Positions 38,313 through 53,840 of a stretch of 64,000 bases of DNA are shown here, piece by piece. The DNA lies in the NCBI GenBank assembly GCA_913060815.1, contig CAJXSZ010000009.1, forward strand, positions 1-64,000, written 5' to 3'. The notes beneath the pieces are model-generated. The model saw nothing but the letters and a program-made list of their open reading frames with translations, had not been told where the DNA came from and made no database searches. The position numbers and the translations under genes are program-made. Source of the stretch: an uncultured Sulfitobacter sp. Its GTDB lineage: Bacteria > Pseudomonadota > Alphaproteobacteria > Rhodobacterales > Rhodobacteraceae. The first letter of the stretch is position 1; each line of letters begins with the position of its first letter.

Positions 38313-38834
38313 CTATTTGGATAACCTATCCAGAGCGGACAGGAGGGCGCCTCGAAGGTTAGTCAAGTCGTGTTCCTCAAACGCTTTAGAAAACAATGTG
38401 GTATCCTGAAACATCACATCCGCCATCGCAGCTTCAGCGACTTCTGCACCGGAAGCGGTCAGTTTCACCAGTTTACTGCGCCCGTCACCGGGGTTGGGTG
38501 TCCGCTCGACCAAACCCCTTTCCTCAAGCTGAATGAGTATCTTTGTCGTTCCTCCAGACGACAACAGCGCCGACCGGTAAAGCTCTGTTGGTGTCACTTG
38601 CCTTGGCTCCGGCTGTGCGCGCAACGCGACAAGGATTTCAAATGCTGCGTGGGACAAGTCGAACGCAGCCAACGCCTTTTCAGTACGCATTCTGACTAAT
38701 TCGTGCAGCCTGAAAGTTGCGAACACGACGTCGGTTTCGACCGCTACGGCTTCTGGCCAGTTCACCTTGATGCGATCCAGTAGTTCCGAAACCGGTGTTC
38801 TGTCGGTCATGTCAGTTGTGCTCATGCCCGGCAT
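38313..38834 (-). CDS. MarR-family transcriptional regulator
   Basis: A 173-residue winged-helix regulator. The DNA-binding part contains VTPTELYRSALLSSGGTTKILIQLEERGLV, given here by its ends VTPTELYRS and IQLEERGLV, followed by the basic wing GDGRSKLVKLT. MarR dimers usually bind palindromes near their own start; two such sites are in the 73-base gap to the divergent deaminase gene. The start may be the ATG at 38834 or the one at 38825. It marks the left end of the accessory region. Confidence 0.92.
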   Translation of the reverse strand: MPGMSTTDMTDRTPVSELLDRIKVNWPEAVAVETDVVFATFRLHELVRMRTEKALAAFDLSHAAFEILVALRAQPEPRQVTPTELYRSALLSSGGTTKILIQLEERGLVERTPNPGDGRSKLVKLTASGAEVAEAAMADVMFQDTTLFSKAFEEHDLTNLRGALLSALDRLSK

Positions 38835-38844
38835 GATAATTTAC

Positions 38845-38856
38845 CTTTCTAGAAAG
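38845..38856. promoter_or_regulatory. MarR operator candidate 1
   Basis: CTTTCTAGAAAG is a perfect 12-base palindrome within TACCTTTCTAGAAAGACAA. The same extended sequence recurs 29 bases away, on the same face of the helix within roughly three turns. It is placed to block the MarR gene's own promoter or that of the deaminase. Confidence 0.75.
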
Positions 38857-38873
38857 ACAAGTAAGTGATATAC

Positions 38874-38885
38874 CTTTCTGGAAAG
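38874..38885. promoter_or_regulatory. MarR operator candidate 2
   Basis: CTTTCTGGAAAG lies within TACCTTTCTGGAAAGATAA, the near-identical second copy of the palindrome at 38845. It ends 22 bases before the deaminase ATG and so probably overlaps that promoter's core or start site. Confidence 0.75.
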
Positions 38886-38907
38886 ATAAATACTTTGGAG
38901 ACAGTTC

Positions 38908-39936
38908 ATGCCAGACCTGACGCAATCCCTAATCGACAATCTCCCAAAAGCCGAGCTTCACCTCCATATCGAGGGGACGTTAGAGCCGCAGATGATGCTG
39001 GACATGGCTAAAAGAAATGGGGTCGAGCTGCCTTATGCAAATGCTGAAGAGGTCGCCAAAGCCTATGAGTTTGATTGTCTACAGGATTTTCTCGATCTCT
39101 ATTTTCTGGGCATGTCGGTATTACAGACAGAAAAAGATTTCTACGACCTGACTTGGGCTTATCTGGAGCGGGTGCATGCTGATCGTCTGACCCACGTGGA
39201 GATGTTCTTTGATCCGCAAGCCCACACCGATCGCGGCATTGCCTTTGAAACTGTTCTGGGTGGAATCACTTCCGCCCTTGAGGATGCAAGAAAAGAACTT
39301 GGGATCACCTCTAAGCTGATCATGTGTTTCCTGCGCCATCTCCCAGAGGAGGAGGCCTTTGAAGCACTGGAGTGCGCGTGCAAGCACAAGGAACATATCT
39401 TTGGTGTCGGCTTGGACAGCACCGAAAAAGGCTTTCCGCCGGGCAATTTCGCCCGTGTCTTTGAGGCTGCACGCAAAGAGGGTTTCACACCTGTCGCCCA
39501 TGTCGGTGAAGAGGGAACAGCAGAAAACGTACGCGAAGCGCTGGACGTTTTAAAAATCGATCGTGTGGATCACGGCAACCATGCCTTGGACGACGCGGCA
39601 CTGACGCGGCGTCTAGCCGATCAGCAGACACCGCTCACGATGTGCCCGATTTCAAACTGGCGGCTAAAGGGCATCCCAACCCTTTCGGCAAGCCCTGTGA
39701 AAAAAGCACTGGATGCGGGTCTTTTGGTTACCGTGAATTCGGATGATCCATCCTATTTCGGTGGTTATCTGAATGATAACTATCGCGCAGTCGCAGAACA
39801 TCTCGATGTCAGCGAGAAAGAGATCGTCCAATTGGCGAAGAACTCTTTTGCCGGATCGTTTATGACCGATGCAGAAAAGCAGGGTCAACTCGACAGGATT
39901 GATAAGCAGATTGATAGCCTTCGAAAGTCGCAATAG
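38908..39936 (+). CDS. Adenosine/adenine deaminase family protein
   Basis: A 342-residue zinc amidohydrolase. Metal ligands are His18 and His20 in ELHLHIEG, a later His in HVGEEG (about 196-201, with the catalytic Glu), and the Asp pair in NSDDPSYFGGY. The SDDPxYFGGY form and overall similarity favour the adenine deaminase (Aah1-type) branch over classical adenosine deaminase, so I give no symbol. A TTGGAG ribosome-binding site precedes the start. It is divergent from the MarR gene and shares its two operators. A TCCCGA/TCGGGA hairpin follows the stop at 39937-39958. Confidence 0.88.
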   Translation: MPDLTQSLIDNLPKAELHLHIEGTLEPQMMLDMAKRNGVELPYANAEEVAKAYEFDCLQDFLDLYFLGMSVLQTEKDFYDLTWAYLERVHADRLTHVEMFFDPQAHTDRGIAFETVLGGITSALEDARKELGITSKLIMCFLRHLPEEEAFEALECACKHKEHIFGVGLDSTEKGFPPGNFARVFEAARKEGFTPVAHVGEEGTAENVREALDVLKIDRVDHGNHALDDAALTRRLADQQTPLTMCPISNWRLKGIPTLSASPVKKALDAGLLVTVNSDDPSYFGGYLNDNYRAVAEHLDVSEKEIVQLAKNSFAGSFMTDAEKQGQLDRIDKQIDSLRKSQ

Positions 39937-40124
39937 TCCCGAGAGCTTGCGTTCGGGAACCGTGCAGCGAACTCAACTGTCTTCGACGCCTAGGTGGCGA
40001 TTAGACCCCGCCCCCTAGGTGACCCCGCATACAATTCCCACCTTATCAGAGTAGCTTCAAAACTTTCTGAACCAAGGTCCACGCGATCTCCTTCCAGCCA
40101 TGCAAAAGCTAATGGCACGGTCCG

Positions 40125-40721
40125 CTATTCGGGTTTGCGGGCAATGAAATCAATCAATGCCGACATCCCGACGTGGGCCGAACCAGAGCGTTGCTCGGCG
40201 TCATATTCCTCGCAAACCAGAACATCGCAGTCCGCGAACACGTCGCGGAAATCTGCGCTGACGTACATATTCTCGGCATGTGGCGGGCCGCCCGTGCCGA
40301 ATTCCAACTGTTTCGGCGTGTAGCCGTGGATTATGATCAATCCACCTGGCCTTGTCGCGTCGCGCATCTTGCGCCACAGCACATCGCGCTCGGCAGGGCC
40401 TGTGAACTGGAAAAACAAGCCAAGCGTGATGTCAAAAGCGTTAACTGGCCAATTCCATTCGAACAGGTCGGACTGAATGAATTGCGGTGTCACATTGTTT
40501 TCACGCGCCAACTTCTGCGCTTTCGCGACTGCCGACGGCGCAAACTCCACGCCCGTGACATCAAGGCCCTTCTTGGCAAGATGCACGCCATTGCGGCCTT
40601 CGCCCTCCGCAATCGAGAGGACAGACTGCCCCGCCTCAAAGAACGCATCGTGCTTGAGCAAAAACGGTACAGGCTCTGTTCCGAACAAATACCCGTCTTT
40701 TGCAAATCTCTCTTCCCACAT
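40125..40721 (-). CDS. SAM-dependent methyltransferase, class I
   Basis: A 198-residue Rossmann-fold methyltransferase. The SAM-binding loop is SIAEGEGRNGVHLAKKG (about 36-52), followed by GVEFAPSAV and LFFQF. The form resembles the TehB/thiopurine-type small-molecule methyltransferases that act on thiols, tellurite or other soft nucleophiles; a thiol or sulfide substrate would suit the neighbourhood but is inference. It is the last gene of the leftward sulfur operon, 17 bases after SulP. The 188 bases before it (39937-40124) hold no gene. Confidence 0.85.
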   Translation of the reverse strand: MWEERFAKDGYLFGTEPVPFLLKHDAFFEAGQSVLSIAEGEGRNGVHLAKKGLDVTGVEFAPSAVAKAQKLARENNVTPQFIQSDLFEWNWPVNAFDITLGLFFQFTGPAERDVLWRKMRDATRPGGLIIIHGYTPKQLEFGTGGPPHAENMYVSADFRDVFADCDVLVCEEYDAEQRSGSAHVGMSALIDFIARKPE

Positions 40722-40738
40722 GTCGCAATTTCCTCGGG

Positions 40739-42457
40739 CTAGGTCACTCGTTTCGCTTTGAGATAGCTTGCCCCCTCGAACTGCGAAAGGAAAACCTTAC
40801 CAGTCAAATCCGACAGGAAATGCGCACGCTGCAGGCGGTCCATGACAGGGCCTTTCACTTCTGAAAGATGCAATTGCACATCCATTTCGCGCAAGCGTTC
40901 GTTGATCGCCTCAAGGGATTCCAGAGCGCTGAAGTCGATTTCGTTGATTGCGGAGCATTGCAGGATCACATGGCGGATCGCGCTGTCCTTGGCGACCCGC
41001 GCCTGAATTTTATCCTCCAGAAAACGGGCGTTGGCAAAGTATAGGCTCTCGTCAACACGCAGGCTCACGACGCTGGGGTCCGTGATCACATTGTGGCGCA
41101 GAATGTTCCGGTAATGCTCGGTGCCCGGCACCTGCCCGACTTCGGCGATATGCGGCTTTGAAGACTTATAAAGGTGCAACAGGACCGACAGTCCGACGCC
41201 TGCCGAAACGCCCGCTTCTACGCCAACGGTGAGGGTGATCAGGATTGTGGCTGCGACTGCGGCGAAGTCGGCTTTGGAATACCCCCAACTGCGTTTGAGG
41301 ATCGAAAAATCCACAAGGCTGAGCACCGCCACGATGATGGTGGCGGCAAGAGTCGCCTTTGGCAGAAAGTAGATGAGCGGCGTCAGCGCGAGGGCGGCAA
41401 TAGCCAGACCGATGGCCGTGAATGCCCCTGCGGCTGGTGTGGCAGCACCTGCATCGAAGTTGACCACTGATCGGGAGAACCCGCCCGTCACAGGAAATCC
41501 GCCTGTCAGCGATGCGCCGATATTCGCCGCGCCCAGTCCAATGAGCTCTTGGTCCGGATCAATCCTCTGGCGCTTTTTCGCGGCCAGTGTCTGTGCGACC
41601 GAGATGGACTCTACAAAGCCGATGATCGAGATCAGGAACGCGGGAAGCAGCAGTTGCCCCAAAAGTTCCAGTGAGAAGGACGGCAGTGTGAACGGGGGCA
41701 GGCTTTGGGGAACCTCACCGACGATTTGAACACCTCTATCGGCAAGGCCCAAGCCCCACACCGCCAGCGTTGTCGCGACAACGACGAACACAGGTCCGGT
41801 CTTGACCAACACACCAGTCAGACCTGCGCCGAGGCCAAGGCTTGTCAGCAGTGGCTTAAGCCCCTTACGAACCCAGAAAAGAAAACCCGTTGCCGACACA
41901 CCCAGAATTGCGGTGATCCAGTTGATCTGCGACAAATGCATGACCAGCGACACCACAAGGTCCAGCAGGTTATGCCCGTGCGCATCAATCCCGAGAATGT
42001 GCTTAAGCTGGCTCGCGGCGATGATTATGCCAGAGGCGGTGATGAACCCCGCAATAACGGGGTGGGAGAGAAAATTCGCGACGAACCCCAGCCGAAACAA
42101 CCCCATGGCAAGCAGCATCACACCCGACAGGCCAGCCAGCGAAAGCGCCGCAACGGCGTACCCCATCGTCCCCTGCTCCACGATGTTGCTCAGCGCTGCG
42201 GCCGTCATCAGGGAGACTACCGCCACAGGCCCGACAGCAAGCGCGTTGCTGGTGCCAAACACAGTATAAAGCAGGATCGGCACGATCGACGCATACAGGC
42301 CGGCCTCTGCCGGAAGCCCCGCCAGCAAGGCATAGGCCAGCGATTGCGGGATCAGCATAATGGTCACGATAAGGGCTGCCATCAGATCGTTTGACAGGGC
42401 CGTGCGGGTATAATCGCGACCCCAACTGAGGATCGGCAGGTATTGGGACAGGGTCAT
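40739..42457 (-). CDS. SulP-family anion transporter with STAS domain
   Basis: A 572-residue inner-membrane protein with about 12 to 14 helices, family motifs IVTIMLIPQSLAYALLAGLP (first 20 residues of the motif region) and VAQTLAAKKRQRIDPDQEL, and a C-terminal STAS domain (about 440-565). SulP members carry sulfate, bicarbonate or other anions, usually with H+ or Na+. Next to sulfide oxidation genes, sulfate or sulfite export/import is the likely role. The start at 42457 begins the conserved region. A stable hairpin (CCGCCT/AGGCGG, 42479-42503) separates it from the upstream SQR gene. Confidence 0.9.
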   Translation of the reverse strand: MTLSQYLPILSWGRDYTRTALSNDLMAALIVTIMLIPQSLAYALLAGLPAEAGLYASIVPILLYTVFGTSNALAVGPVAVVSLMTAAALSNIVEQGTMGYAVAALSLAGLSGVMLLAMGLFRLGFVANFLSHPVIAGFITASGIIIAASQLKHILGIDAHGHNLLDLVVSLVMHLSQINWITAILGVSATGFLFWVRKGLKPLLTSLGLGAGLTGVLVKTGPVFVVVATTLAVWGLGLADRGVQIVGEVPQSLPPFTLPSFSLELLGQLLLPAFLISIIGFVESISVAQTLAAKKRQRIDPDQELIGLGAANIGASLTGGFPVTGGFSRSVVNFDAGAATPAAGAFTAIGLAIAALALTPLIYFLPKATLAATIIVAVLSLVDFSILKRSWGYSKADFAAVAATILITLTVGVEAGVSAGVGLSVLLHLYKSSKPHIAEVGQVPGTEHYRNILRHNVITDPSVVSLRVDESLYFANARFLEDKIQARVAKDSAIRHVILQCSAINEIDFSALESLEAINERLREMDVQLHLSEVKGPVMDRLQRAHFLSDLTGKVFLSQFEGASYLKAKRVT

Positions 42458-42511
42458 GGGGGTCTCGGTCAGTCTTGGCCGCCTCACCCGATGGGCAAGG
42501 CGGCGAGGGAG

Positions 42512-44185: not shown

Positions 44186-44201
44186 GAGAGTGCGTCTCCG
44201 T

Positions 44202-45107
44202 TCAGAATTTGTTGGCTGGAATTTTGAAATAGCGATGGCCGTCGTTTTCCGGTGCGGGCAACGCGCCACCGTTCAGGTTCACCTGCAAGGCCGCCAACAT
44301 GCGCTGTGGCAGCGAAAGCGTTGCGTCCCGTTTTTCGCGCAGCGCGACATAGTCGGCTTTCGACGTGCCACCACCAATGTGGATATTGTCGGCCTTCTGC
44401 TCGCCCACCGTGCTTTCCCAGCTCGGTTCATCACGGGTTTTGGTGCCATAGTCATGGCCGATGAAAACACGGTGATCAGACGGATGTGCGAGAATGGCGT
44501 GAATACTGTCGTATAGCTCGCTTGCCGATCCACCGGGGAAGTCGCAACGCGATGTACCCGCGTCCGGCTGCATTAGCGTGTCGTGTGCAAAGATGGCATC
44601 GCCGACGACGTAGCTCACTGAACCCAAAGTGTGACCGGGTGACAGCATGACCGAGACATCGATATTACCAAGTTTGAAGGTATCGCCATCGGCAAACAGC
44701 CGGTCAAAGCGTGCATCAACATCAAAGGCGTTTGGAAGATTATAAAGGTCCCGCCAGAGCAACGCGATATCGCGCACCTTCTCTCCGATGCCGACTTGAA
44801 CACCCGTTCGGGATTTGAGCCAGTCTGACGCCATCAGGTGATCGGCATGCGGATGGGTATCGAGAATCCACTCCAGCTCCAGCCCCTGCTCTTGCAGGTA
44901 ATCCAACGCGTACTGGCCATATGTTTGATCCGTGGCAAACGACTTGGGATCGAACGCCTGAACGATGTCGATCAGCGCAGCTTTTTGCGTTTCGGGATCG
45001 ACGCAGATGTATTGCGCACTTCCCGTCGCCGCATCGTAGAACCCGATCACTTCAGGGCTGCCTGTGCCAGTGGAGGATGAAGATTTCATTAGAATGTCGT
45101 TGGTCAT
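44202..45107 (-). CDS. MBL-fold hydrolase, persulfide-dioxygenase-like
   Basis: A 301-residue metallo-beta-lactamase-fold protein. The metal motif is DTHPHADHL (HxHxDH), with later ligands in SPGHTLGS, AHDTLM and IGHDYG. The layout matches the ETHE1/Blh persulfide dioxygenase family that oxidises glutathione persulfide to sulfite. It is a paralogue of the protein at 45728-46612; both share CDFPGGSASELYDSI. The gene is 16 bases upstream of the SQR fusion, so they are co-transcribed. Confidence 0.88.
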   Translation of the reverse strand: MTNDILMKSSSSTGTGSPEVIGFYDAATGSAQYICVDPETQKAALIDIVQAFDPKSFATDQTYGQYALDYLQEQGLELEWILDTHPHADHLMASDWLKSRTGVQVGIGEKVRDIALLWRDLYNLPNAFDVDARFDRLFADGDTFKLGNIDVSVMLSPGHTLGSVSYVVGDAIFAHDTLMQPDAGTSRCDFPGGSASELYDSIHAILAHPSDHRVFIGHDYGTKTRDEPSWESTVGEQKADNIHIGGGTSKADYVALREKRDATLSLPQRMLAALQVNLNGGALPAPENDGHRYFKIPANKF

Positions 45108-45208
45108 CGTTGCCTCACTGGCTCAATGGAGTGTTCATTTGCATGGAACGCAGCGGTGCAATCACTCAACGCGAGTAAATGCACCGCCAGAGTTGTTCGG
45201 TTGAACGG

Positions 45209-45694: not shown

Positions 45695-45727
45695 GTCTCT
45701 CTCCAACTTGGCTAGAATTGCATTCGC

Positions 45728-46612
45728 TCACAGCCCGTTGACGGGCACTTTGAGCATAGGGTTGCCGTCACTATCCGTGGGGACTTCGCCCGCGCGCATG
45801 TTCACCTGCAAAGACGGAATGATCAGCTTGGGCATGGCCAGCTGTGCGTCGCGCTCGGTGCGGAACTTGATGAAATCTTCGCGGGTCTTGTCGCCGCCCA
45901 CGTGGATATTGTTGGCTTTCTGCTCTGCGACTGTGGTCTCCCACTCGATCGCGCGGCCGTTCGGGCCGTAGTCGTGGCACATGAACAGGCGGGTCTCATC
46001 GGGCAGAGACAGGACTTTCATGATGCTGTCGTAAAGCTCGCTTGCCGATCCACCAGGAAAGTCACACCGCGCAGAGCCGCCATCGGGCATGAACAAGGTA
46101 TCACCTGCAAAGGCGGCATTGCCGATCACATGCACCATACACGCAGGCGTGTGGCCGGGGGTGTACATGGCAAAGCCTTGCATGTTGCCGATCTGGTAGG
46201 TGTCACCGTCCTTGAACAGCGCATCAAACTGCGATCCGTCACGCTGGAATTCGGTGCCTTCGTTGAAAACCTTTCCGAAGGTTTCCTGCACGACCATAAT
46301 TTTTTCCCCGACGCCGATTTTGCCGCCCAGCTTTTGCTGGATATAAGGGGCAGCGCTCAGGTGGTCGGCGTGGACATGGGTCTCGATGATCCATTCCAGC
46401 TTGGCGCCCATCTCAGTGATACGCGCGATCATTGCGTCCGCATGATCATAGGTGATCCGCCCGGCAGCGTAGTCGATGTCCATCACACTATCGATGATGG
46501 CGCAGGCGTCGGATGTGGGGTCTTTGACGATATAGCTGATGGTGTTTGTAGCCTCGTCAAAGAAGGCTTCGACCTCGGGCTTAACGCTCATGTCTACGGG
46601 ATAGTCTGTCAT
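45728..46612 (-). CDS. MBL-fold hydrolase, persulfide-dioxygenase-like (second copy)
   Basis: A 294-residue paralogue of the protein at 44202-45107. The metal motif ETHVHADHL, TPGHTPAC, AGDTLFMPD and CHDYGP give the ETHE1/Blh-type iron site; like its neighbour it ends SLQVNMRAGEVP. It should oxidise glutathione persulfide with O2 to sulfite. The start at 46612 has a TGGAGGAAA ribosome-binding site; a longer frame reaches 46654 and would overlap the upstream stop. Having two paralogues suggests different persulfide substrates or regulation. Confidence 0.88.
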   Translation of the reverse strand: MTDYPVDMSVKPEVEAFFDEATNTISYIVKDPTSDACAIIDSVMDIDYAAGRITYDHADAMIARITEMGAKLEWIIETHVHADHLSAAPYIQQKLGGKIGVGEKIMVVQETFGKVFNEGTEFQRDGSQFDALFKDGDTYQIGNMQGFAMYTPGHTPACMVHVIGNAAFAGDTLFMPDGGSARCDFPGGSASELYDSIMKVLSLPDETRLFMCHDYGPNGRAIEWETTVAEQKANNIHVGGDKTREDFIKFRTERDAQLAMPKLIIPSLQVNMRAGEVPTDSDGNPMLKVPVNGL

Positions 46613-46650
46613 TTCGTTTCCTCCAGTTTGCGGATTCGCGGGCCGCAGGC

Positions 46651-47229
46651 TCAATGGCTCGTGCCGCGCTCCATCATCATGTCATGCACGGCGTCCATGC
46701 CGCGTTCGGTCATAGCCGTCACTTCGGCGGCGTGGGTGTGTAGGGCTGCGATAACCTCCGCGTCATCCGAGGTCTGGACGACGACCAAGCCGTCATCGGT
46801 AATATCGATGCTTGATGTGATTGCCGCACCGCGCAAAAAGAAGATATCAAGCGTGGGGCTTTGGATGATGATCTTGGGGTCATCCAACTGATCCACACGG
46901 TCGATCATGCCGATCGAGTGGCTAATCAAGGCCTCCCGCACTGCGGGATCAGTAGATCGGGTGATGGTCCTGATCCCGTCGGGCAGGTTTTCGACCTCAC
47001 GTGTGATCGTCTCGAAACCTCTGAACAACACTGCGATCTCAGCACTTTCCTCGGCTGTTGCATTCTCTCCCCGCAAGCCCGGCATGTTGACCTCGTCATG
47101 CGCATGACCCGCACCGTGGCTATGTCCGCCACCGTGCTTGTGTTGCGCGAGTGTCACCGCTCCAGCGCTGGCAAGGCCAAGGGCCAGAACCATGGTCGCA
47201 ACACGCTTGGGAGAGAGAAGATTTTTCAT
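46651..47229 (-). CDS. Exported His-rich protein, function unknown
   Basis: A 192-residue protein with a signal peptide (MKNLLSPKRVATMVLALGLA, cleavage after about residue 28) and then a His/Gly cluster HKHGGGHSHGAGHAHD that probably binds metal such as copper, zinc or nickel. The rest contains LPDGIRTITRSTD, IQSPTLDIFFLRG and HTHAAEVTAM, which look conserved but match no family I can name. It is periplasmic. The stop overlaps the following gene region by four bases with the split transporter upstream, in one operon with the sulfur genes. Confidence 0.78.
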   Translation of the reverse strand: MKNLLSPKRVATMVLALGLASAGAVTLAQHKHGGGHSHGAGHAHDEVNMPGLRGENATAEESAEIAVLFRGFETITREVENLPDGIRTITRSTDPAVREALISHSIGMIDRVDQLDDPKIIIQSPTLDIFFLRGAAITSSIDITDDGLVVVQTSDDAEVIAALHTHAAEVTAMTERGMDAVHDMMMERGTSH

Positions 47230-47657
47230 CGGGCTGCCTTCGCAGATCCAGCAGGAGACAAAAGCCGTCGCACGTAAAATCCTGCAACCACTGCCACAAG
47301 GAACAGGGCAACTTCCCAGCGGCCCGTGCCAAGCGCCGGAATAGCAGCACCCGGACAGAACCCTGCGATGCCCCAGCCGATGCCGAACAGCGCCGAGCCG
47401 CCGACCAACTTCATATCGATGTCAGTGCCCGTTGGCACCTGAAAGCATCCGCCAAACAAAGGCGCATCGCGCTTCCACGCCAACCGATAGCCAAAGAACG
47501 TAATGACCAGCGCGCCGCCCATAACAAAGGCAAGGCTCGGGTCCCATGTACCCGCGAGGTCAAAGAAGTTCAGAACCTTGGCAGGGTCCATCATGCCGGA
47601 AATCGCGATGCCAGTTCCAAAGACAAGGCCAGTGATCAATGCAAAAATAAGTTTCAT
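47226..47657 (-). CDS. YeeE/YedE-type transporter half, DUF6691
   Basis: A 143-residue membrane protein with about four helices. GTGIAISGMMDPAKVLNFFDL at the start (motif core SGMMDPAKV) and GIGWGIAGFCPGAAI, with a conserved Cys, are the signature of the shorter subunit of split YeeE/YedE (PmpB-like) carriers. These move thiosulfate or other reduced sulfur through a path lined by Cys. It pairs with the gene at 47661-48098, three bases upstream. Confidence 0.87.
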   Translation of the reverse strand: MKLIFALITGLVFGTGIAISGMMDPAKVLNFFDLAGTWDPSLAFVMGGALVITFFGYRLAWKRDAPLFGGCFQVPTGTDIDMKLVGGSALFGIGWGIAGFCPGAAIPALGTGRWEVALFLVAVVAGFYVRRLLSPAGSAKAAR

Positions 47658-47660
47658 GTC

Positions 47661-48098
47661 TTAGCCTCCAAACACATGGCGGATCAGGAATACGGTGATC
47701 GCGGCGGTCGCCATGAATGTTGGCACAGCAACCAGCGACCGGATTGATAGTCGTGACAGCCCGCAGACACCGTGGCCTGACGTACAACCAGACCCGAGGC
47801 TCGCGCCCAGACCCACGATAACACCGCCAATGACGATCATCGCAGGGCTCACAGGAATGGTGAGCGCGGGCATTGAACCCGTGATGGCAAACAGCAGCAC
47901 AGGGCCAAGGATCATCCCGATCACAAGTGCCACCCGCCAGGACAGCTCTTCGCGATTCTCAAAGAATACGAGTCCGGACATAATGCCGGTCGCGCCAAAT
48001 ATCCGGCCCAAGCCAAGCATCAACAGAACGGCTCCAAGGCCGATCAGGGCCCCGCCACCAAGCGATTGAAACGGTGTGAATGCAGTCTCGAACATCAT
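47661..48098 (-). CDS. YeeE/YedE-type transporter half (PmpA-like)
   Basis: A 145-residue membrane protein with about four helices and GATGIMSGLVFF and GLGASLGSGCTSGHGVCGLSRLS, whose GCTSGHGVCG with two Cys is the hallmark of YeeE/YedE transporters. With the adjacent DUF6691 half it should form one sulfur-compound carrier. The start ATG at 48098 overlaps the DUF2892 stop (ATGA). Confidence 0.9.
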   Translation of the reverse strand: MMFETAFTPFQSLGGGALIGLGAVLLMLGLGRIFGATGIMSGLVFFENREELSWRVALVIGMILGPVLLFAITGSMPALTIPVSPAMIVIGGVIVGLGASLGSGCTSGHGVCGLSRLSIRSLVAVPTFMATAAITVFLIRHVFGG

Positions 48099-48307
48099 AG
48101 CTTGCATGTCCGAATGCCGAAGATGCGATACAGCGGGCAGAATTTCATGGCTGAAGTCCCGAGCATCACAAGGCCCGCAATTACCGAGATAACCGTCGCA
48201 GCTGTTCCGTTGAACATAGCCAACCCGCTTACAAACGGTGCGGCCAGTAGAACGATACCCAAAAGAGCGCGGAAGATGCGGTCAAGGGTGCCTAGATTCG
48301 TAGTCAT
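48095..48307 (-). CDS. DUF2892 small membrane protein
   Basis: A 70-residue protein with two transmembrane helices and a conserved end FCPLYRIFGIRTC. DUF2892 is also the membrane part of the rhodanese YgaP, so a role in membrane sulfane-sulfur handling is plausible. The start at 48307 has AAAGGAGACA upstream; the frame extends further but without support. It is the first gene of the leftward sulfur operon, and an NsrR-like site lies just before its ribosome-binding site. Confidence 0.88.
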   Translation of the reverse strand: MTTNLGTLDRIFRALLGIVLLAAPFVSGLAMFNGTAATVISVIAGLVMLGTSAMKFCPLYRIFGIRTCKL

Positions 48308-48324
48308 GTCGCTGTCTCCTTTAA

Positions 48325-48347
48325 AAGATACACCATGAATAGCCCTT
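48325..48347. promoter_or_regulatory. Candidate NsrR/Rrf2 site before the DUF2892 gene
   Basis: AAGATACACCA-T-GAATAGCCCTT resembles the 11-1-11 NsrR consensus (AAGATGCATTT, one base, AAATGCATCTT) with about 7 and 6 matches. The 12-base core TTAAAAGATACA is shared exactly with the region before the Rrf2 gene itself (49547-49558). Confidence 0.5.
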
Positions 48348-48363
48348 TTACGCGTAGGGTTCA

Positions 48364-48376
48364 GTGACTTTGTCAC
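48364..48376. promoter_or_regulatory. Short palindrome between the DUF2892 operon and the Crp/Fnr gene
   Basis: GTGAC-TTT-GTCAC is a perfect 5-bp inverted repeat spaced by three bases, about 57 bases upstream of the DUF2892 ATG and 18 bases past the Crp/Fnr stop. It may be an operator for the DUF2892 promoter or a weak hairpin. The half-site GTGAC is compatible with a Crp/Fnr-type protein but the spacing is short. Confidence 0.35.
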
Positions 48377-48393
48377 CAAACCGTCGGATTCAT

Positions 48394-49065
48394 TTAGGCA
48401 TTATGGTCCGCAAGGGTTTGAAGCTTGCTTCGGTCTTTGAGTGTCACGCTTCCACGCGCCTGCTCGATCCAGCCACGCCGCTGAAACTCCTGCAATTGGC
48501 GAGAGATCACTTCCCGCGCCGTGCCAAGTTCGACAGAGAGTTTTTGATGGGTCGTCGAAACTTTGTCAGCATCGCCAGAAAGCTTGATCAATTTGTCCGC
48601 AAGCCGCACATCGACCCGTTGAAAGGCGACCTCGTCGATCATCAGGAACAAATCCGTGATCCGCTTGGAAAAGGCTGCAAATACGAAATCCCGAAACGGC
48701 TTGGACCCAGCGACCAAATCGTCAAACACCTCGCGCGGCACAGCGGCCGCCTTCACGACCGATTCCGCGATGCCCTCTGCGGAATAGTCATCGTATGCCA
48801 AAAGGCAGGCCGTGGTCAGCACACAGCTTTGCCCCGCCTCGATCCGATAGAGGACGATTTGATGGCCCGTCTCCGAGACCTGCTGCACCCGAACGGTGCC
48901 ATCCAATAGAAACAGCATGTTTTCCGGCGATCGACCCGGACCGAATACCATGGTGTCCTTCGGCACGCTGACGATCGTGCTGCGGTTCGTCAGGAGTTGC
49001 TTCGTGGGCAGGTCAAGCCGTGACAGCCCCGGAAATCGCTCGACCCAATCGGCATCAGCGTTCAT
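48394..49065 (-). CDS. Crp/Fnr-family regulator with a Cys pair
   Basis: A 223-residue regulator: cyclic-nucleotide-binding-type sensor domain (about 15-125), dimer helix, and winged helix-turn-helix with LSVELGTAREVISRQLQEF. It has only two cysteines, Cys81 and Cys87 in GQSCVLTTACLL, so it cannot hold an Fnr-type 4Fe-4S cluster by four Cys. A Cx5C pair could form a disulfide or polysulfide bridge, which would suit sulfide sensing; this is inference. It overlaps the Rrf2 gene by ATGA. Confidence 0.9.
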   Translation of the reverse strand: MNADADWVERFPGLSRLDLPTKQLLTNRSTIVSVPKDTMVFGPGRSPENMLFLLDGTVRVQQVSETGHQIVLYRIEAGQSCVLTTACLLAYDDYSAEGIAESVVKAAAVPREVFDDLVAGSKPFRDFVFAAFSKRITDLFLMIDEVAFQRVDVRLADKLIKLSGDADKVSTTHQKLSVELGTAREVISRQLQEFQRRGWIEQARGSVTLKDRSKLQTLADHNA

Positions 49066-49526
49066 GTTGTAGCCGTTTCTGATCGCGGAACCTCAAGCGG
49101 TGCGATGCGGTCCATCAGCTGCCCGCGATTGGCGGCAATATCTGCAATTGTAAGATCGTCCAGAACCGCCATGAAAGCTGCGGTTGCTTCCTGCATTTTA
49201 CGGGACAGGATACAGACGCCTATCAAAGGACACGTATTCTTTTCAGGATTGAAACACTCGACCACATCCAGTGGTCCCTCCGTAATCCGGACAACCTCGC
49301 CCACGATGATCTCTTCTGGCGGACGGGCAAGACGGAAGCCCCCGTTACGGCCCCTAACAGTCTCAAGATATCCGGCTTTTCCCAATTCATGCACGATCTT
49401 CATAATGTGCGGCCGCGAAAGATTATGGATCTGCGCCACATCATCAATGCGCACAAGGTCGGGCGATTTAAGCGCAGCAAGCTGCAGCGAGCGCATCGCG
49501 TAGTTGGTATAGCTGGTCAGTTTCAT
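49062..49526 (-). CDS. Rrf2-family regulator, NsrR-like
   Basis: A 154-residue Rrf2 winged-helix regulator. LTSYTNYAMRSLQLAAL opens it, NLSRPHIMKIVHELGKAGYL is the DNA-binding part, and three Cys at 91, 99 and 105 (ECFNPEKNTC, then five residues, then Cys) match the cluster-binding pattern of NsrR, the NO-sensing iron-sulfur repressor. The start at 49526 has AGGATG upstream. A NsrR-like site lies 25 bases upstream, suggesting autoregulation. It is co-transcribed with the Crp/Fnr gene and divergent from the peroxiredoxin-cyd genes. Confidence 0.88.
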   Translation of the reverse strand: MKLTSYTNYAMRSLQLAALKSPDLVRIDDVAQIHNLSRPHIMKIVHELGKAGYLETVRGRNGGFRLARPPEEIIVGEVVRITEGPLDVVECFNPEKNTCPLIGVCILSRKMQEATAAFMAVLDDLTIADIAANRGQLMDRIAPLEVPRSETATT

Positions 49527-49550
49527 AGGTGCATCCTGTTGTCGCATTAA

Positions 49551-49573
49551 AAGATACATTCAAACTATTGCTT
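49551..49573. promoter_or_regulatory. Candidate NsrR site in the Rrf2/peroxiredoxin divergent region
   Basis: AAGATACATTC-A-AACTATTGCTT fits the first 11-base NsrR half-site at 9 of 11 positions and the second at 6. It lies between the Rrf2 gene and the divergent peroxiredoxin-cydAB genes, so it could control both. The core TTAAAAGATACA recurs before the DUF2892 operon. Confidence 0.55.
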
Positions 49574-49629
49574 TTGTAAAGACCCTGCGCTAGATCACCT
49601 CAAAGAACTATTTCAAATATAGGAAATAA

Positions 49630-50259
49630 ATGATGACACTCAGAATCGGCGACACCGCCCCCGACTTTTCCGCAGATACAACAACTGGTCCGATTAACTT
49701 CCATGACTGGATCGGCGACGATTGGGCGTTCTTTTTCAGCCACCCCGCTGACTTTACGCCCGTTTGCACAACCGAAATGGGCCGGACATCGCAGCTGTCG
49801 GAGCAATTCACACAGCGCGGCGTGAAACCCATCGGCCTTTCCACCGATTCGGTAGAAGAGCACATCAAATGGATCGACGATGTAAACGACACCCAGAACA
49901 CAGACCTGCGATTCCCTATTGTCGCGGATGCGGATCTGACCATCGCCAAGCAATACGACATGATCCACCCGAGCGAGAGCGAAACCGCTGCGGTGCGCTC
50001 AGTGTTCATCATTGATCCTGACAAGAAAATCCGCCTTACTATGACCTACCCGATGAGCGTCGGGCGCAACTTTGACGAAATTCTGCGCGTCGTGGATGCG
50101 TTGCAAACCGGCGACAAGCACAAGATCGCGACGCCCGCCGATTGGGTGCCAGGGCAGGAAGTCATTATTCCGCCATCGGTCTCTGACGCAGACGCAAAAA
50201 TCGCTTTCCCGCAGGGATTTGAGACCCTTCGCCCTTACCTGCGCAAAGTAAAAATCTAA
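49630..50259 (+). CDS. 1-Cys (Prx6-type) peroxiredoxin
   Basis: A 209-residue peroxidase. The peroxidatic Cys46 is in HPADFTPVCTTE, and no resolving Cys is present, matching the Prx6/1-Cys group with its extended C-terminal domain (TPADWVPGQEVIIPPSVSD). It reduces hydrogen peroxide, alkyl or persulfide species. Two ATG codons in tandem (49630, 49633) follow AGGAAATAA. It is the first gene of the rightward peroxiredoxin-cyd unit, 28 bases before cydA. Confidence 0.92.
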   Translation: MMTLRIGDTAPDFSADTTTGPINFHDWIGDDWAFFFSHPADFTPVCTTEMGRTSQLSEQFTQRGVKPIGLSTDSVEEHIKWIDDVNDTQNTDLRFPIVADADLTIAKQYDMIHPSESETAAVRSVFIIDPDKKIRLTMTYPMSVGRNFDEILRVVDALQTGDKHKIATPADWVPGQEVIIPPSVSDADAKIAFPQGFETLRPYLRKVKI

Positions 50260-50286
50260 ACCCTCCCAGCCCGATGGAGAACACTC

Positions 50287-51696
50287 ATGTTTGATGGCTT
50301 CACAGCAGAGACATTGGCCCGAATACAATTTGCATTCACCGTGTCGTTCCACATTATCTTTCCTGCGTTCTCCATCGGTTTGGCAAGCTATCTTGCCGTC
50401 CTGAACGGGCTTTGGCTGCGCACCCGAGACGAAACTTATCTGACGCTTTTCAACTACTGGAAAAAAATATTTGCCGTAGCTTTCGGCATGGGCGTCGTGT
50501 CGGGCATCGTCATGTCGTACCAATTCGGCACCAACTGGTCGGTGTTCTCTGACAAGACAGGTCCGGTGCTTGGGCCGCTTATGGCCTACGAAGTCCTCTC
50601 CGCATTCTTTCTGGAGGCGGGGTTCCTTGGCATCATGCTCTTCGGGCGCGAGCGTGTCGGCGACAAGCTGCATATGTTTGCAACAGCCATGGTCGCCTTT
50701 GGCACGCTGATGTCCGCGACATGGATCCTGTCGGTAAACTCATGGATGCAGACCCCTGCGGGTTACAGCATCAATGAGTTGGGGCAATTCGTACCCGAGG
50801 ACTGGTGGAAAATCGTCTTTAACCCCTCATTCCCCTACCGCCTCACGCATATGGTGCTCGCGGCCTACCTGACCACAGCTTTGGTCGTTGGCGGTGTGGG
50901 CGGTTTGCATCTTCTGCGCAACCGCGAGGACGCGCCCGCGCGGCGCATGTTCTCGATGGCGATGTGGATGCTTATCGTAGTGGCCCCGTTGCAGATCGCG
51001 GCAGGCGACTTTCACGGCATCAACACGTTGGAGCATCAACCCGCCAAAGTAATGGCGATGGAAGGCCACTATGACAGCCACCCTGATGGCGCACCGCTGA
51101 TCCTGTTCGGTATTCCCAATGCGGAAGAAAAGCGGATCGATTACGCCGTCCAGATCCCCTACCTGTCCAGTATGATCCTCAAGCACCATTGGGATGCCCC
51201 GTTGGACGGCTTGGATACCATCCCCGACGACGAAGAGCCCCCCGTGGCGATCGTGTTCTGGAGCTTTCGCGTGATGGTAGGTCTCGGCTTTGCGATGCTC
51301 GGGCTCGGGGCATGGGCGGCATGGCGCCGCTTTCGCGGGTCGCTTTATGATACGCCTCTGTTGCACCGCGCCGCGATCGTGATGGGCCCGATGGGCTTTG
51401 TTGCAGTTCTCGCAGGCTGGATCACCACCGAGGTGGGCCGCCAGCCATTCACCGTCTACGGCGTACTGCGAACCTCCGACAGTCTGGCACCGGTTGCCGC
51501 CCCCGCTGTGGCCGCATCGCTGATCGCCTTCATCGTCGTCTATTTCTTCGTCTTCGGCGCTGGCACCGTGTACCTGCTGCGGATGATGAACAAGGCACCC
51601 GCGACGCCAAAGCTTGGCCTGCGCGACGGGCCGATCCGCACCGCTGGCATCACCCCGATCGCCCAAACCAACCCCGACGCCGTCGCAGGCGAATAG
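50287..51696 (+). CDS. cydA: Cytochrome bd-type quinol oxidase subunit I, cyanide-insensitive type
   Basis: A 469-residue integral membrane subunit that binds the haems and oxidises quinol. FAFTVSFHIIFPAFSIG holds the His of the bd active site near residue 22; WSVFSDKTGPVLGPL, SVNSWMQTPAG and VGRQPFTVYG are family blocks. The quinol loop is short, as in cyanide-insensitive oxidases (CioA). This oxidase makes respiration tolerant of sulfide, cyanide and NO, fitting the sulfide genes on the other side. GATGGAGA provides the ribosome-binding site. Confidence 0.95.
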   Translation: MFDGFTAETLARIQFAFTVSFHIIFPAFSIGLASYLAVLNGLWLRTRDETYLTLFNYWKKIFAVAFGMGVVSGIVMSYQFGTNWSVFSDKTGPVLGPLMAYEVLSAFFLEAGFLGIMLFGRERVGDKLHMFATAMVAFGTLMSATWILSVNSWMQTPAGYSINELGQFVPEDWWKIVFNPSFPYRLTHMVLAAYLTTALVVGGVGGLHLLRNREDAPARRMFSMAMWMLIVVAPLQIAAGDFHGINTLEHQPAKVMAMEGHYDSHPDGAPLILFGIPNAEEKRIDYAVQIPYLSSMILKHHWDAPLDGLDTIPDDEEPPVAIVFWSFRVMVGLGFAMLGLGAWAAWRRFRGSLYDTPLLHRAAIVMGPMGFVAVLAGWITTEVGRQPFTVYGVLRTSDSLAPVAAPAVAASLIAFIVVYFFVFGAGTVYLLRMMNKAPATPKLGLRDGPIRTAGITPIAQTNPDAVAGE

Positions 51697-51706
51697 GAGC
51701 ACAGCA

Positions 51707-52708
51707 ATGTTTGAACTTTCCTTTATCTGGGCGGGCATCATCGCATTCGCCGTCCTGACCTACGTGATCCTCGACGGGTTCGATCTGGGCGTTGGCATCT
51801 TGTTTCCCCTTGCCGACGGGGAGCGGGAGAAGGCCACGATGATGAATTCCATCGCGCCCATCTGGGACGGCAACGAGACGTGGCTGGTTCTGGGCGGCGG
51901 CGGCTTGTTCGCGGTCTTTCCACTGGCTTACGCCGTCATCATGCCCGCGCTCTATATGCCGATCATCCTGATGCTGCTCGCGCTGATCTTTCGCGGCGTT
52001 GCCTTTGAGTACCGCTGGCGCACCAAGCACGGGAAATACATCTGGGATGCCGCGTTCTTTGGCGGGTCTATCGTCGCCGCCTTCATGCAAGGCATCGCAC
52101 TTGGTGCATTGGTGCAGGGCATCGAAGTTGCGGACCGCGCCTACGCAGGGGGCTGGTGGGACTGGCTCAGCGTATTCTCGATTCTGACGGGCGTCGCAGT
52201 CGTTGTCGGCTACGCCCTCTTGGGCGCGACTTGGATCATCCTGAAAACCGAGAACGCCCTGCAACGCCGCATGCAAAACTATGCGTGGTATCTGGGTGCT
52301 GGCACTTTGGTCTTTATCGGCGCGGTTAGTATCCTGACCCCGTTCCAGGACCCCGAGTATTTTCAGCGCTGGCTGAACCTGCCCGGAAGCATCTTCAGCG
52401 TGATTATGCCCGGCGCGGTTCTCGCGGCTGCTTGGGCACTGTTTGCAGGTCTGAACGCGGGCAAAGATGCGCAGCCGTTCCTCGCAGCACTGAGCCTCTT
52501 TGTGCTGTGCTTCATCGGTATCGGGATCAGCTTTTATCCCAACATCATCCCCCCCAGCCTGAGCATCGCCGAGGCCGCAGCCCCTGATGAAAGCCTGCGC
52601 TTTGCGCTTGTTGGAACAGTCGTGCTGGTGCCGATGATCCTCGCCTACACCGCCTACGCATATTGGGTGTTTCGGGGGAAAATCGATCCCGAAGAGGGGT
52701 ATCACTGA
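51707..52708 (+). CDS. cydB: Cytochrome bd-type quinol oxidase subunit II
   Basis: A 333-residue subunit with eight or nine transmembrane helices. VILDGFDLGVGILFPL and IWDGNETWLVLGGGGLFAVFP are family signatures. It pairs with CydA. The start follows AGGAGC ten bases after the cydA stop; its stop overlaps the small DUF2474 gene by one base (TGATG). Confidence 0.96.
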   Translation: MFELSFIWAGIIAFAVLTYVILDGFDLGVGILFPLADGEREKATMMNSIAPIWDGNETWLVLGGGGLFAVFPLAYAVIMPALYMPIILMLLALIFRGVAFEYRWRTKHGKYIWDAAFFGGSIVAAFMQGIALGALVQGIEVADRAYAGGWWDWLSVFSILTGVAVVVGYALLGATWIILKTENALQRRMQNYAWYLGAGTLVFIGAVSILTPFQDPEYFQRWLNLPGSIFSVIMPGAVLAAAWALFAGLNAGKDAQPFLAALSLFVLCFIGIGISFYPNIIPPSLSIAEAAAPDESLRFALVGTVVLVPMILAYTAYAYWVFRGKIDPEEGYH

Positions 52709-52818
52709 TGACCTACGCAACAGTGCGAAAGCTTGGATGGTTCATCGCGATCTGGGTTGCGAGCGTCGCAGCTCTCGGGGTTGTCGCATATGCCATCCGG
52801 CTCGCCATCCACACCTGA
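52708..52818 (+). CDS. DUF2474 small oxidase subunit (CydX-like), 36 codons
   Basis: A 36-residue peptide MTYATVRKLGWFIAIWVASV and onward, one transmembrane helix from about residue 10 to 32. Gene order and the pattern W-F/Y-hydrophobic-IW-x-xSV-x4-Gly with a final Ile-Arg match DUF2474, the small protein found after cioB/cydB in cyanide-insensitive oxidase operons, probably acting like CydX as a stabilising third subunit. Start overlaps the cydB stop (TGATG). It is easily missed because of its size. Confidence 0.85.
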   Translation: MTYATVRKLGWFIAIWVASVAALGVVAYAIRLAIHT

Positions 52819-52847
52819 AATTCCCAATGCAAACAAGGAGCAGAAAA

Positions 52848-53287
52848 ATGCGCCTCTCGAAGCTTTTTACATCGGCGGCATTGTCGCTGGGCATGGCAAC
52901 AGCAGCCCATGCCGAAGACCCTGCCAAGCTCATCACCATCCTGACCTCGGCAGAGCCACAAACACAGCTTATGGCCATGGTTTTGACAATGAACGCCAAG
53001 AACGCTGGCGCCGAGGCAGAGGTCCTGCTCTGCGGCCCAGCAGGCGACATTGCGCTTGCCGATGCACCCGCGTCCGCAACAACAGGTCAGCCCCCAAGGA
53101 TGCCAGCCCGCAGGGTTTGATGAAGATGCTCATGGCAAAGAAAGACCTCAAGGTTCAGGTCTGCGCCATCTACCTGCCCGGCAAAGGGATGGACGCCTCG
53201 GTGTTGCTTGACGGTGTAACTGCCGCCGCACCGGACGCCATGGGCGCAGCAATCGTCGACGCAAACACCACCGTAATGAGCTTTTGA
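52848..53287 (+). pseudogene. DsrE-family exported protein, frameshifted in a C run
   Basis: The gene opens with a signal peptide (MRLSKLFTSAALSLGMATAA, cleavage after AHA) and a DsrE/DsrF-like domain with TILTSAEPQTQL and LLCGPAGDIAL. The first frame ends at a stop at 53118-53120 shortly after CAGCCCCCAAGG. Adding one C to the run at 53091-53095 joins it to the second frame, which reads PKDASPQGLMKMLM to VMSF and stops at 53285-53287. Intact relatives have exactly that layout, so a single C is missing: a true mutation, a phase-variable tract, or a sequencing error. The product would be a periplasmic sulfur-carrier. Confidence 0.82.
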
Positions 53288-53293
53288 CAATCC

Positions 53294-53333
53294 GAACCGC
53301 TCCGCAGGGTGACAATTCCCAGCGGAGCGGTTC
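53294..53333 (+). terminator. Strong hairpin after the DsrE gene
   Basis: GAACCGCTCCGC pairs with GCGGAGCGGTTC, 12 perfect base pairs, with an inner GGG/CCC in the loop. There is no T run, only TTCCTCG, so it may be a weak terminator or mRNA-stabilising hairpin. It closes the peroxiredoxin-cyd-dsrE unit. Confidence 0.7.
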
Positions 53334-53474
53334 CTCGAATTGGCATACTTTGCCGATCCGACATCCTTGCAGTTTCCCGCCTCCGCGTGCAGCATCCCTA
53401 AGACCAGCCTGAGCAATAGGTCTGGCATTTTGCACAATGCTCCAAAGCCTGAAACACCAAGAGAACTGATTGAT

Positions 53475-53840
53475 ATGAGCGCCGAAATTCAGCGTAACAA
53501 ACAGCAGGCCGTGGTTCGCGGTTTCATGCTGCGATGCCCGTCTTGCGGCGTTGGAAAGACACTGCACAGATACCTTAAGGTGAAGGACTGCTGTGACCAT
53601 TGCGGCTTGGAACTGCATCATGCCAGCGTTGACGATGGCCCTGCATATTTCACACTGATGGTCGTTGTGGCGGTCATCTTCCCCTTATTTGCGATCATCT
53701 ATGCAAATTTTGACCCGAACCCGCTCGTTGTGGCGATCTCAATGATGGCGCTGGCCACAGCCCTTGCGCTTTTTCTTCTACCGCGTGTGAAGGGCGTGTT
53801 CATCGGATTGCAGTGGGCTTCGCGACTTCACGGCTTTTGA
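53475..53840 (+). CDS. DUF983 zinc-ribbon membrane protein
   Basis: A 121-residue protein: two CxxC pairs, CPSCG and CDHCGL, at about 22-46 form a zinc ribbon, followed by two transmembrane helices (about 60-82 and 85-105) and LPRVKGVFIGLQW. This is the DUF983 family, often near cytochrome oxidase genes. The start at 53475 is chosen by family length; the ribosome-binding site is weak. It lies 188 bases after the DsrE gene and probably has its own promoter. Confidence 0.9.
   Translation: MSAEIQRNKQQAVVRGFMLRCPSCGVGKTLHRYLKVKDCCDHCGLELHHASVDDGPAYFTLMVVVAVIFPLFAIIYANFDPNPLVVAISMMALATALALFLLPRVKGVFIGLQWASRLHGF

Follow-up and report, generated by a model that had tools for sequence, protein, structure and literature searches.

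A predicted Crp/Fnr regulator–operator pair in a probable sulfide/persulfide insert of an uncultured Sulfitobacter sp.

A stretch of 64,000 nucleotides from an uncultured Sulfitobacter sp. (Rhodobacteraceae; assembly GCA_913060815.1, contig CAJXSZ010000009.1, positions 1 to 64,000 of the forward strand), called the window below, carries between ispH and lysE–rnhA a block of sulfide and persulfide genes (38,313 to 53,840). Within it we describe a regulator of the Crp/Fnr family, here Crp, with a cysteine pair, C81 and C87, in the former pocket for cyclic AMP (cAMP), and a 13-bp palindrome, GTGAC-N3-GTCAC, lying between the crp gene and the sulfide operon. The gene set, its insertion, the position of the candidate operator, its co-occurrence with Crp, the invariance of the two cysteines and the loss of the two residues aligned with cAMP contacts all come from sequence comparison; we propose that Crp binds the palindrome, activates the operon and senses sulfide or persulfide. 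The best explanation for the block, which we consider likely, is a laterally acquired insert with a sulfide/persulfide module, passenger genes and a Crp persulfide switch. The module, a conserved sulfide/persulfide set of Rhodobacterales, is of a known kind, and its group is known too; what is new is the pair of Crp and operator. The operator and the subgroup of cysteine-pair Crp proteins go beyond a preliminary description of this DNA, which had been made from the letters alone.

The Crp/Fnr protein and the palindrome beside its gene

The regulator, its candidate operator and the start of the operon are arranged as follows.

48394..49065, minus strand: Crp/Fnr regulator, C81-x5-C87 in a degenerate cyclic nucleotide monophosphate (cNMP) pocket; PF13545 and PF00027 above cut-off
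48364..48376, no strand assigned: candidate operator GTGACAAAGTCAC (minus strand), its centre some 41 bp before the predicted start; in 73/80 loci
48336..48341, minus strand: predicted -10 element TATTCA of the sulfide operon, placed by hand; T at +29 in 51/73 and A at +30 in 52/73 loci
48095..48307, minus strand: DUF2892/YgaP-type membrane protein, first gene of the operon; PF11127; C57 in 70/70, C68 in 68/70

Family assignments come from Pfam and NCBIfam models. Crp has the cNMP-binding and HTH_Crp domains, both above cut-off, and its fold matches Crp/Fnr structures. C81 and C87 are invariant in 86 of 86 aligned sequences (the window, L037, L043-L046 and the 80 loci described below; L numbers are loci, G numbers genomes), inside the stretch SCVLTTACLL. 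In an alignment with M. tuberculosis CRP, this stretch stands where the cyclic-nucleotide cassette would be: Thr85 and Tyr94 occupy the positions of a Glu and an Arg that are cAMP contacts, and the Arg-Glu of the recognition helix is retained. With Thr and Tyr at the contact positions and 32 of 266 bits against the CRP model, the protein does not look like a cAMP-responsive CRP. Nor does it resemble FNR, an iron-sulfur oxygen sensor with an N-terminal cysteine cluster: C81 and C87 are its only conserved cysteines, and the FNR model gives 21.8 of 228 bits. As a Crp/Fnr protein it also falls outside the ArsR family, to which the persulfide sensors SqrR and BigR belong. The nearest solved chain, by both sequence and fold, is 3DV8 of Eubacterium rectale, from another phylum, in which the C-x5-C is conserved; its identity is 25% and no function is given for it. 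In the open-licence literature no comparable Crp/Fnr protein was met as a regulator of sulfide genes, an absence that is weak evidence.

The palindrome was followed around the best 80 of 165 relatives of Crp, all of them close, with 15 of the 80 loci shorter than 20 kb. In 73 loci a GTGA-N5-TCAC site stands between -10 and +300 relative to the stop codon of crp; elsewhere in the same loci it is found 25 times in 1,499 kb, and five of these are displaced operators. The exceptions are L051, L055, L062, L075 and L084, where crp is not adjacent and the palindrome lies upstream of the operon's first gene, and L053 and L103, which have no operon gene. Near the crp stop the spacer between GTGA and TCAC is 5 bp in 73 loci, 6 in one, and 2-4 or 7-10 in none. 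Because T and A recur at +29 and +30, we place a putative -10 box there and the centre of the palindrome at about -41, the position of a class II activator.

The exact string GTGACNNNGTCAC has two places in the window genome, here and at C3:216125; the second falls within a long coding frame, and we took it as chance. Since a reversed control pattern occurs at seven places, the site would be a dedicated one rather than an enriched one. A looser 15-letter regulon pattern matched every one of the 62 genomes of the genus (26 strand-wise matches in the window genome) and was left unused.

Across these 62 genomes, a Crp homologue (E 1e-30) occurs in 30 and sulfide:quinone oxidoreductase (SQR; E 1e-100) in 19. 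In the operons of the SQR genomes, Crp and the palindrome are both there or both absent in all 18 that are readable: the palindrome lies upstream of the operon in 14/14 genomes with Crp (G000, G008, G014, G016, G019, G021, G025, G029, G034, G035, G063, G065, G077, G081) and in 0/4 without a homologue (G020, G028, G067, G076). This count leaves out G017, whose SQR is at a contig end, and the outgroup G050, in which both are there; it keeps G028, whose SQR has no DUF442 part, and G077, whose SQR is partial. G020, G067 and G076 may represent one event, as they share a reduced set of persulfide dioxygenase (PDO), SQR and SulP at similar identity (79-81%).

Regulator and palindrome also persist together at about 40% identity within the phylum. 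Relatives of Crp (E 1e-35) occur in 70 of 299 sampled genomes. Among the 30 loci listed, the window's own included, C-x5-C is present in 28; L148 and L149 have neither C-x5-C nor the palindrome. The latter lies near the crp stop in 18/30 loci (window included) and overlaps the stop codon in eight of the 18; the T and the A of the -10 box are each kept in 16/18, and the next gene is DUF2892 in 17 and yeeA in one. We lean slightly towards a widespread, undescribed subgroup of Crp/Fnr proteins in Proteobacteria, in which the cAMP pocket would have become a two-cysteine sensor of sulfane sulfur and which would act as class II activator from the 13-bp GTGAC-N3-GTCAC operator; DUF2892 would be its oldest client, and Rhodobacterales would have extended its reach to PDO, SQR and sulfur transport, sometimes with a bd oxidase.

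On plasmids (nine loci taken from 30 listed records, with 110 records matching), crp and the palindrome stand together in five loci (L183, L185, L186, L187, L191). A Paracoccus plasmid (L184) has the palindrome at 8830 but lacks crp within the fetched 20 kb; a Crp of 52% identity is encoded elsewhere on that plasmid (W01 246511-247155). L188, L189 and L190 show no palindrome near the operon and no Crp in a search that covered the plasmid. The gene order of L189, from Neotabrizicola shimadae, is nearly that of the window: cydAB, peroxiredoxin, Rrf2, regulator, DUF2892, YeeE pair, metallo-β-lactamase-fold (MBL) protein, DUF442-SQR, SulP and methyltransferase. There an ArsR protein, encoded on the opposite strand (5525-5848), takes the regulator's position between Rrf2 and DUF2892; it matches NolR and HlyU at 82 bits, YgaV at 74, SqrR-type proteins at 66 and BigR at 65. 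Its cysteines 37 and 103 have the same separation, 66 residues, as the sensing cysteines of SqrR (41/107) and BigR (42/108) (PMC9774590). This swap, one case, is the best pointer to the signal that Crp may read. A search of the plasmid loci for the SqrR-type site ATTC-N8-GAAT gave no useful signal. OxyR-type genes, annotated as hydrogen peroxide-inducible genes activator, adjoin SQR-SulP in L184 (12690-13622) and L188 (7970-8890), perhaps as a third type of regulator for the same module.

The block, its genes and its place

The remaining features, from the left native flank to the right, are these.

37234..38184, plus strand: ispH, left native flank; PF02401; on the same contig and strand as rnhA in 60/62 genus genomes
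38313..38834, minus strand: MarR-family regulator, passenger; PF12802/PF01047
38908..39936, plus strand: adenosine deaminase, passenger; PF00962; in 1/62 genus genomes
40125..40721, minus strand: S-adenosylmethionine methyltransferase (Methyltransf_25, weak TPMT/TehB), last gene of the operon; no match in the 80 loci
40739..42457, minus strand: SulP anion permease with STAS domain; PF00916, PF01740
42512..44185, minus strand: DUF442 sulfurtransferase domain (PF04273) fused to SQR; residues 149-545 match human-type SQOR, 332 bits
44202..45107, minus strand: MBL-fold persulfide dioxygenase-like protein 1 (PDO 1); 9G8T 258 bits, 4YSK 226 bits
45209..45694, minus strand: ferritin-like protein; PF00210; bacterioferritin model below its cut-off
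45728..46612, minus strand: MBL-fold persulfide dioxygenase-like protein 2 (PDO 2), the conserved one; 4EFZ 345 bits, 4YSK 334 bits; in 70/80 loci
46651..47229, minus strand: exported His-rich protein; no Pfam or NCBIfam family; homologues in 3/80 loci
47226..47657, minus strand: DUF6691, second half of the split YeeE/YedE carrier (yeeB); PF20398
47661..48107, minus strand: YeeE/YedE Sulf_transp, first half (yeeA); PF04143; Cys108 and Cys115 in 46/46
49062..49526, minus strand: Rrf2 regulator with three cysteines (C91, C99, C105; in 26/27); PF02082; 4-bp overlap with crp
49550..49580, minus strand: Rrf2-type dyad with TTTACA (-35-like) and TATCTT (-10-like) of nsrR-crp; in 15/25 nsrR loci and the window
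49606..49621, no strand assigned: second AT-rich dyad, at the peroxiredoxin (prx) promoter; in 7/25 nsrR loci and the window
49630..50259, plus strand: peroxiredoxin, 1-Cys type (C46); PF00578, PF10417; PRK13189 above cut-off
50287..51696, plus strand: cydA, short Q-loop type; PF01654; alignment omits E. coli CydA 312-374
51707..52708, plus strand: cydB; PF02322; TIGR00203 above cut-off
52708..52818, plus strand: DUF2474 small oxidase subunit; PF10617
52848..53288, plus strand: exported protein called DsrE-like in the preliminary description, frameshifted; frame intact in L038, L039, L066, L069, L082
53475..53840, plus strand: DUF983 protein, passenger or native; PF06170
54023..54637, plus strand: LysE-type exporter, right native flank; PF01810; at the junction in 6/7 relatives
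55672-56127: rnhA, separated from the block by lysE and a methyltransferase

The minus-strand unit runs Rrf2, crp, DUF2892, yeeA, yeeB, His-rich protein, PDO 2, ferritin-like protein, PDO 1, DUF442-SQR, SulP and methyltransferase; an 86-bp gap separates crp from DUF2892, and the rest is codirectional with short gaps or overlaps. On the plus strand follow the 1-Cys peroxiredoxin, cydA, cydB, DUF2474 and the DsrE-like gene. The two units had been described as facing each other; they stand back to back, diverging from 49.53-49.63 kb. The genes named in the preliminary description are present in their places, with Pfam or NCBIfam families for all but the His-rich and DsrE-like proteins. For the DsrE-like one, an open reading frame (ORF) for an exported protein is present, broken by a frameshift near 53088-53093, and as Pfam finds no DsrE domain in either piece the label is that of the earlier description. 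The frame is unbroken in the five loci listed, which are three genomes, and the frameshift may be either genuine or an error of sequencing. The predicted structure of the exported His-rich protein is weak, with a mean predicted local distance difference test score (pLDDT) of 59.

An insertion between ispH and rnhA had been suspected, and the genus bears it out. The two genes lie on one strand of one contig in 60/62 genomes (on different contigs in G071 and G077). The gap between them has a median of 1,105 bp over these 60; it reaches 17,491 bp in the window genome, and the remaining 59 range from 64 to 8,207 bp. The gene-order comparison that had been called for finds the identical block at this place in none of the 59. 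The right-hand edge had been drawn at rnhA; lysE and a second methyltransferase intervene, and both are also at this junction in relatives (lysE in 6/7 fetched, namely L031, L032, L034, L035, L036 and L050 and not L033; the methyltransferase in 7/7). These comparisons support the block as an insert at the ispH-lysE junction. Because G016 carries a different insert there (L031 2576-8728; ispH to lysE 6,558 bp, with LysR- and ABC-transporter-like frames named by eye), the junction seems to be a recurrent place of insertion.

Of the 18 further genomes of the genus that hold SQR, 17 have the gene somewhere other than between ispH and rnhA; the assembly of G077 is too broken up for a decision. The identity of the module to that of the window is out of step with relatedness: SQR is 92% and IspH 88% identical in G008, and 78% and 96% in G081. 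Since the sulfide module is widespread elsewhere in relatives and on plasmids, its lateral arrival would be of a known kind. The features of a mobile genomic island, an integrase or flanking repeats, were not seen: 38151-38420 and 53601-54060 share no 10-mer, and there is no integrase among the ORFs scanned by Pfam, which were part of those of the window. At the left end of the insert, the gene for adenosine deaminase (threshold E 1e-30) stands beside that of the MarR regulator. With DUF983, these two are not obviously sulfur genes, and the earlier view that the whole block belongs together finds no support in this respect.

Among solved chains, human-type SQOR comes nearest to the SQR domain, whose C307 and C487 align with catalytic cysteines there. 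With the flavoprotein domain and these cysteines it classes by sequence as an SQR. C34, C94, C239, C307 and C487 of the fusion protein are present in 55/55 sequences (this and the other protein counts of conserved cysteines leave out L038 and L039, which duplicate L066 and L069, and so does the count of nsrR dyads). The fusion is not rare, with 110 plasmid records at E 1e-80, 56 of which cover at least 80% of the query. Against the Blh model the two MBL proteins, earlier called Blh-like, score 402 and 367 bits where the cut-off is 625, and each aligns to its dioxygenase half alone (model positions 139-423 and 138-422). The DUF442 half sits on SQR instead and the dioxygenase stands alone twice, an arrangement different from the bifunctional sulfurtransferase–sulfur dioxygenase Blh. 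Their similarity to 4YSK, a bacterial PDO, places both as probable dioxygenases of that type.

Cyanide-insensitive bd oxidases combine a CydA of short Q-loop with DUF2474. Both are predicted here: the CydA alignment skips residues 312-374 of E. coli CydA, the long Q-loop insert. The gene pattern agrees with the oxidase type named in the preliminary description, and cyanide resistance is predicted from the short Q-loop pattern. The methyltransferase at the end of the operon could be a sulfide or thiol S-methyltransferase. Relatives of it at 46-47% lie near the module in 2/9 plasmid loci (L188, L189).

How constant the module is can be read from the 80 loci, with the reserve that many of them are closely related and the counts are not independent, which weakens what they say for the proposed control. 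PDO is found in 70, DUF2892 in 64, SulP in 63, SQR in 56 and the YeeE halves in 42 and 41; Rrf2 in 25, cydA in 16, peroxiredoxin and ferritin in 6 each, the His-rich and DsrE-like proteins in 3 each. At least one of PDO, SQR, SulP and YeeE occurs in 78/80; crp, PDO, SQR and SulP occur together in 51/80, a seven-gene set in 24/80, and the window holds one of the fullest versions. With Crp, the module is also found on plasmids of Pseudosulfitobacter, Ruegeria, Chelativorans, Thioclava and Tritonibacter. The single coherent pathway proposed earlier is supported in part: sulfur genes recur in the 78 loci, and the oxidase arm is an optional addition, to judge from the counts of cydA, Rrf2 and peroxiredoxin.

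The Rrf2 protein stays below the cut-offs of both RirA (133 of 193 bits) and NsrR (115 of 182), and its nearest solved chain is an NsrR, at 74 bits. The dyad at 49550..49580 has no further copy on its strand in those nsrR loci, and by eye it fits the published NsrR consensus gATGyAT-N5-ATrCATc (PMC1274295) poorly. As the model scores are below cut-off, we rejected the protein as a proven NsrR, and the nitric oxide (NO) arm of the preliminary description is weak; the signal of the Rrf2 protein may be NO, iron or another. In L045, L046, L186 and L191, which have a sister Crp (47-51% identity), a second palindrome lies in the intergenic region on the prx/cyd side, which supports joint control of both units there. 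The window type carries in this region, instead, the AT-rich dyad between the -35-like and -10-like boxes of nsrR-crp, which we read from its position as a putative site of Rrf2 autorepression.

Rival readings and related systems

From the known families, SQR would oxidise sulfide and pass the electrons to quinone, the fused DUF442 domain would transfer sulfane sulfur to glutathione or a similar thiol, and the MBL dioxygenases would convert persulfide to sulfite. SulP and the YeeE pair would transport sulfur anions, and cytochrome bd would drain electrons while sulfide inhibits other oxidases. Rrf2 would repress nsrR-crp through the site overlapping its promoter. Crp would sense persulfide or sulfane sulfur by C81 and C87 in the former cAMP pocket, bind GTGAC-N3-GTCAC at -41 and activate the operon from DUF2892 to SulP in class II fashion.

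On the sequence evidence we regard Crp and the operator as well supported as a pair, and as moderately supported as a persulfide switch. Several points weigh against the switch. The predicted structure of Crp is weakest at the cysteine loop (residues 84-92, pLDDT below 50). The 5-bp spacer is one base shorter than that of the classical CRP site, GTGA-N6-TCAC, so the palindrome is not a CRP-type operator in the strict sense; it is not enriched genome-wide, and 10 of the 28 phylum-wide C-x5-C loci have none near the crp stop. The ArsR swap is a single case, and at L189 no SqrR-type site was found.

Crp may bind the palindrome while its C-x5-C senses thiol oxidation, NO or a metal, the sulfide genes being one client among others; we think this unlikely, yet it is the alternative that we take most seriously. 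The three far loci whose genes were read one by one (L169, L170, L173) hold crp, the palindrome and DUF2892 with no SQR or dioxygenase nearby, so the ancestral signal may not be sulfide; SQR is present in only 15 of the 30 Crp-bearing genus genomes, though some others keep PDO and YeeE. The C-x5-C is shared with 3DV8, the neighbouring Rrf2 protein is NsrR/RirA-like, and two of the plasmid copies have copper or metal genes in their vicinity. Against another signal speak the sulfide/persulfide or sulfur-transport genes in 78/80 neighbourhoods, the ArsR protein with SqrR/BigR cysteine spacing in the place of crp on L189, and weak matches to SQR-like flavoproteins (19-27% identity) beside crp in five far C-x5-C loci (L144, L151, L152, L153, L156); moreover E. 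coli YgaP, namesake of the DUF2892 Pfam model, is under the sulfide sensor YgaV (PMC9774250). That Crp is a bystander, with the palindrome bound by a MatP-like or other factor or serving as a hairpin or terminator of the crp RNA, we hold to be improbable. The palindrome does equal GTGACATTGTCAC, the E. coli matS consensus (PMC8669397), and in many cases no more than about 20 bp separate it from the end of crp. MatP (PF06303) is absent from the window genome, however, in a search whose E. coli control was positive, and with two exact sites genome-wide we rejected the matS reading for this genome; a terminator or hairpin was rejected because the site stays with the operon in the five loci where crp is displaced. 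No T run follows the palindrome in the crp-stop sequences inspected, the spacing to the -10 box is conserved, and the genus counts (14/14 with Crp, 0/4 without) tie the site to Crp. The literal string also matches the text of a coronavirus small-RNA paper.

Two further readings concern the block as a whole. It could be an ordinary mosaic of independently acquired defence genes without common control, in keeping with the unrelated genes inside it (marR, add, DUF983) and with the rarity of the full set (four-gene core and seven-gene set, cydA and peroxiredoxin, as counted above); for this there is little room, as the core of crp, DUF2892, YeeE pair, PDO, SQR and SulP recurs in one order with one shared operator on chromosomes and plasmids. 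That the genus had the module here ancestrally, with losses in the other genomes, is hardly credible, even if gene loss is common and 19/62 genus genomes hold SQR somewhere: in all other SQR genomes, the undecidable G077 apart, SQR lies away from a short ispH-rnhA junction, and the identities of module and IspH disagree. The reading we prefer remains a lateral insert with a Crp persulfide switch.

Published systems, compared here through excerpts of the papers cited, offer partial parallels. The bigR operon of Xylella and Agrobacterium (BigR, Blh as DUF442-ETHE1, TauE; PMC5823870) likewise joins sulfurtransferase and dioxygenase domains to a thiol-controlled regulator in sulfide detoxification, and the DUF442 domain of Blh was shown to be a sulfurtransferase (PMC5823870). 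Here, in contrast, DUF442 is on SQR, the dioxygenase is separate, the YeeE pair and SulP replace TauE, and the regulator is a predicted Crp/Fnr activator instead of an ArsR repressor. Acinetobacter baumannii has SQR, PDO2 and YeeE/YedE as well, in separate FisR (SQR-PDO1-TauE) and BigR (yeeE-yedE-pdo2) operons under these two regulators, and its CydAB was proposed as electron taker (PMC7315123). Its Crp, persulfidated in sulfide-treated cells, is the nearest published case; it is a classical Crp, about 50% identical to that of E. coli, with the cysteine opposite the ligand pocket, and the excerpts contain no demonstration that it controls sulfide genes (PMC7315123). SqrR of Rhodobacter capsulatus (PMC9774590) and YgaV of E. 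coli, which controls YgaP (PMC9774250), share two-cysteine control; unlike Crp they are ArsR repressors with the site ATTC-N8-GAAT. RedB of R. capsulatus (PMC9603854) comes from an uncharacterised Crp/Fnr subgroup of Rhodobacterales, and is set apart by its description, with an AT-rich, non-palindromic 12-bp motif and 451 genes affected; the word cysteine is absent from the text of that paper.

The dedicated bacterial persulfide sensors named in these excerpts are of ArsR type (SqrR, BigR), CstR and FisR, with OxyR, LasR and OhrR as general responders. If the proposal is true, a Crp/Fnr activator with a conserved operator of its own would bring to persulfide sensing another protein fold, and control by activation. 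It would also provide a test case for how a Crp dimer reads an oddly spaced site, and the sulfide switch of marine Rhodobacterales would become readable from their genomes.

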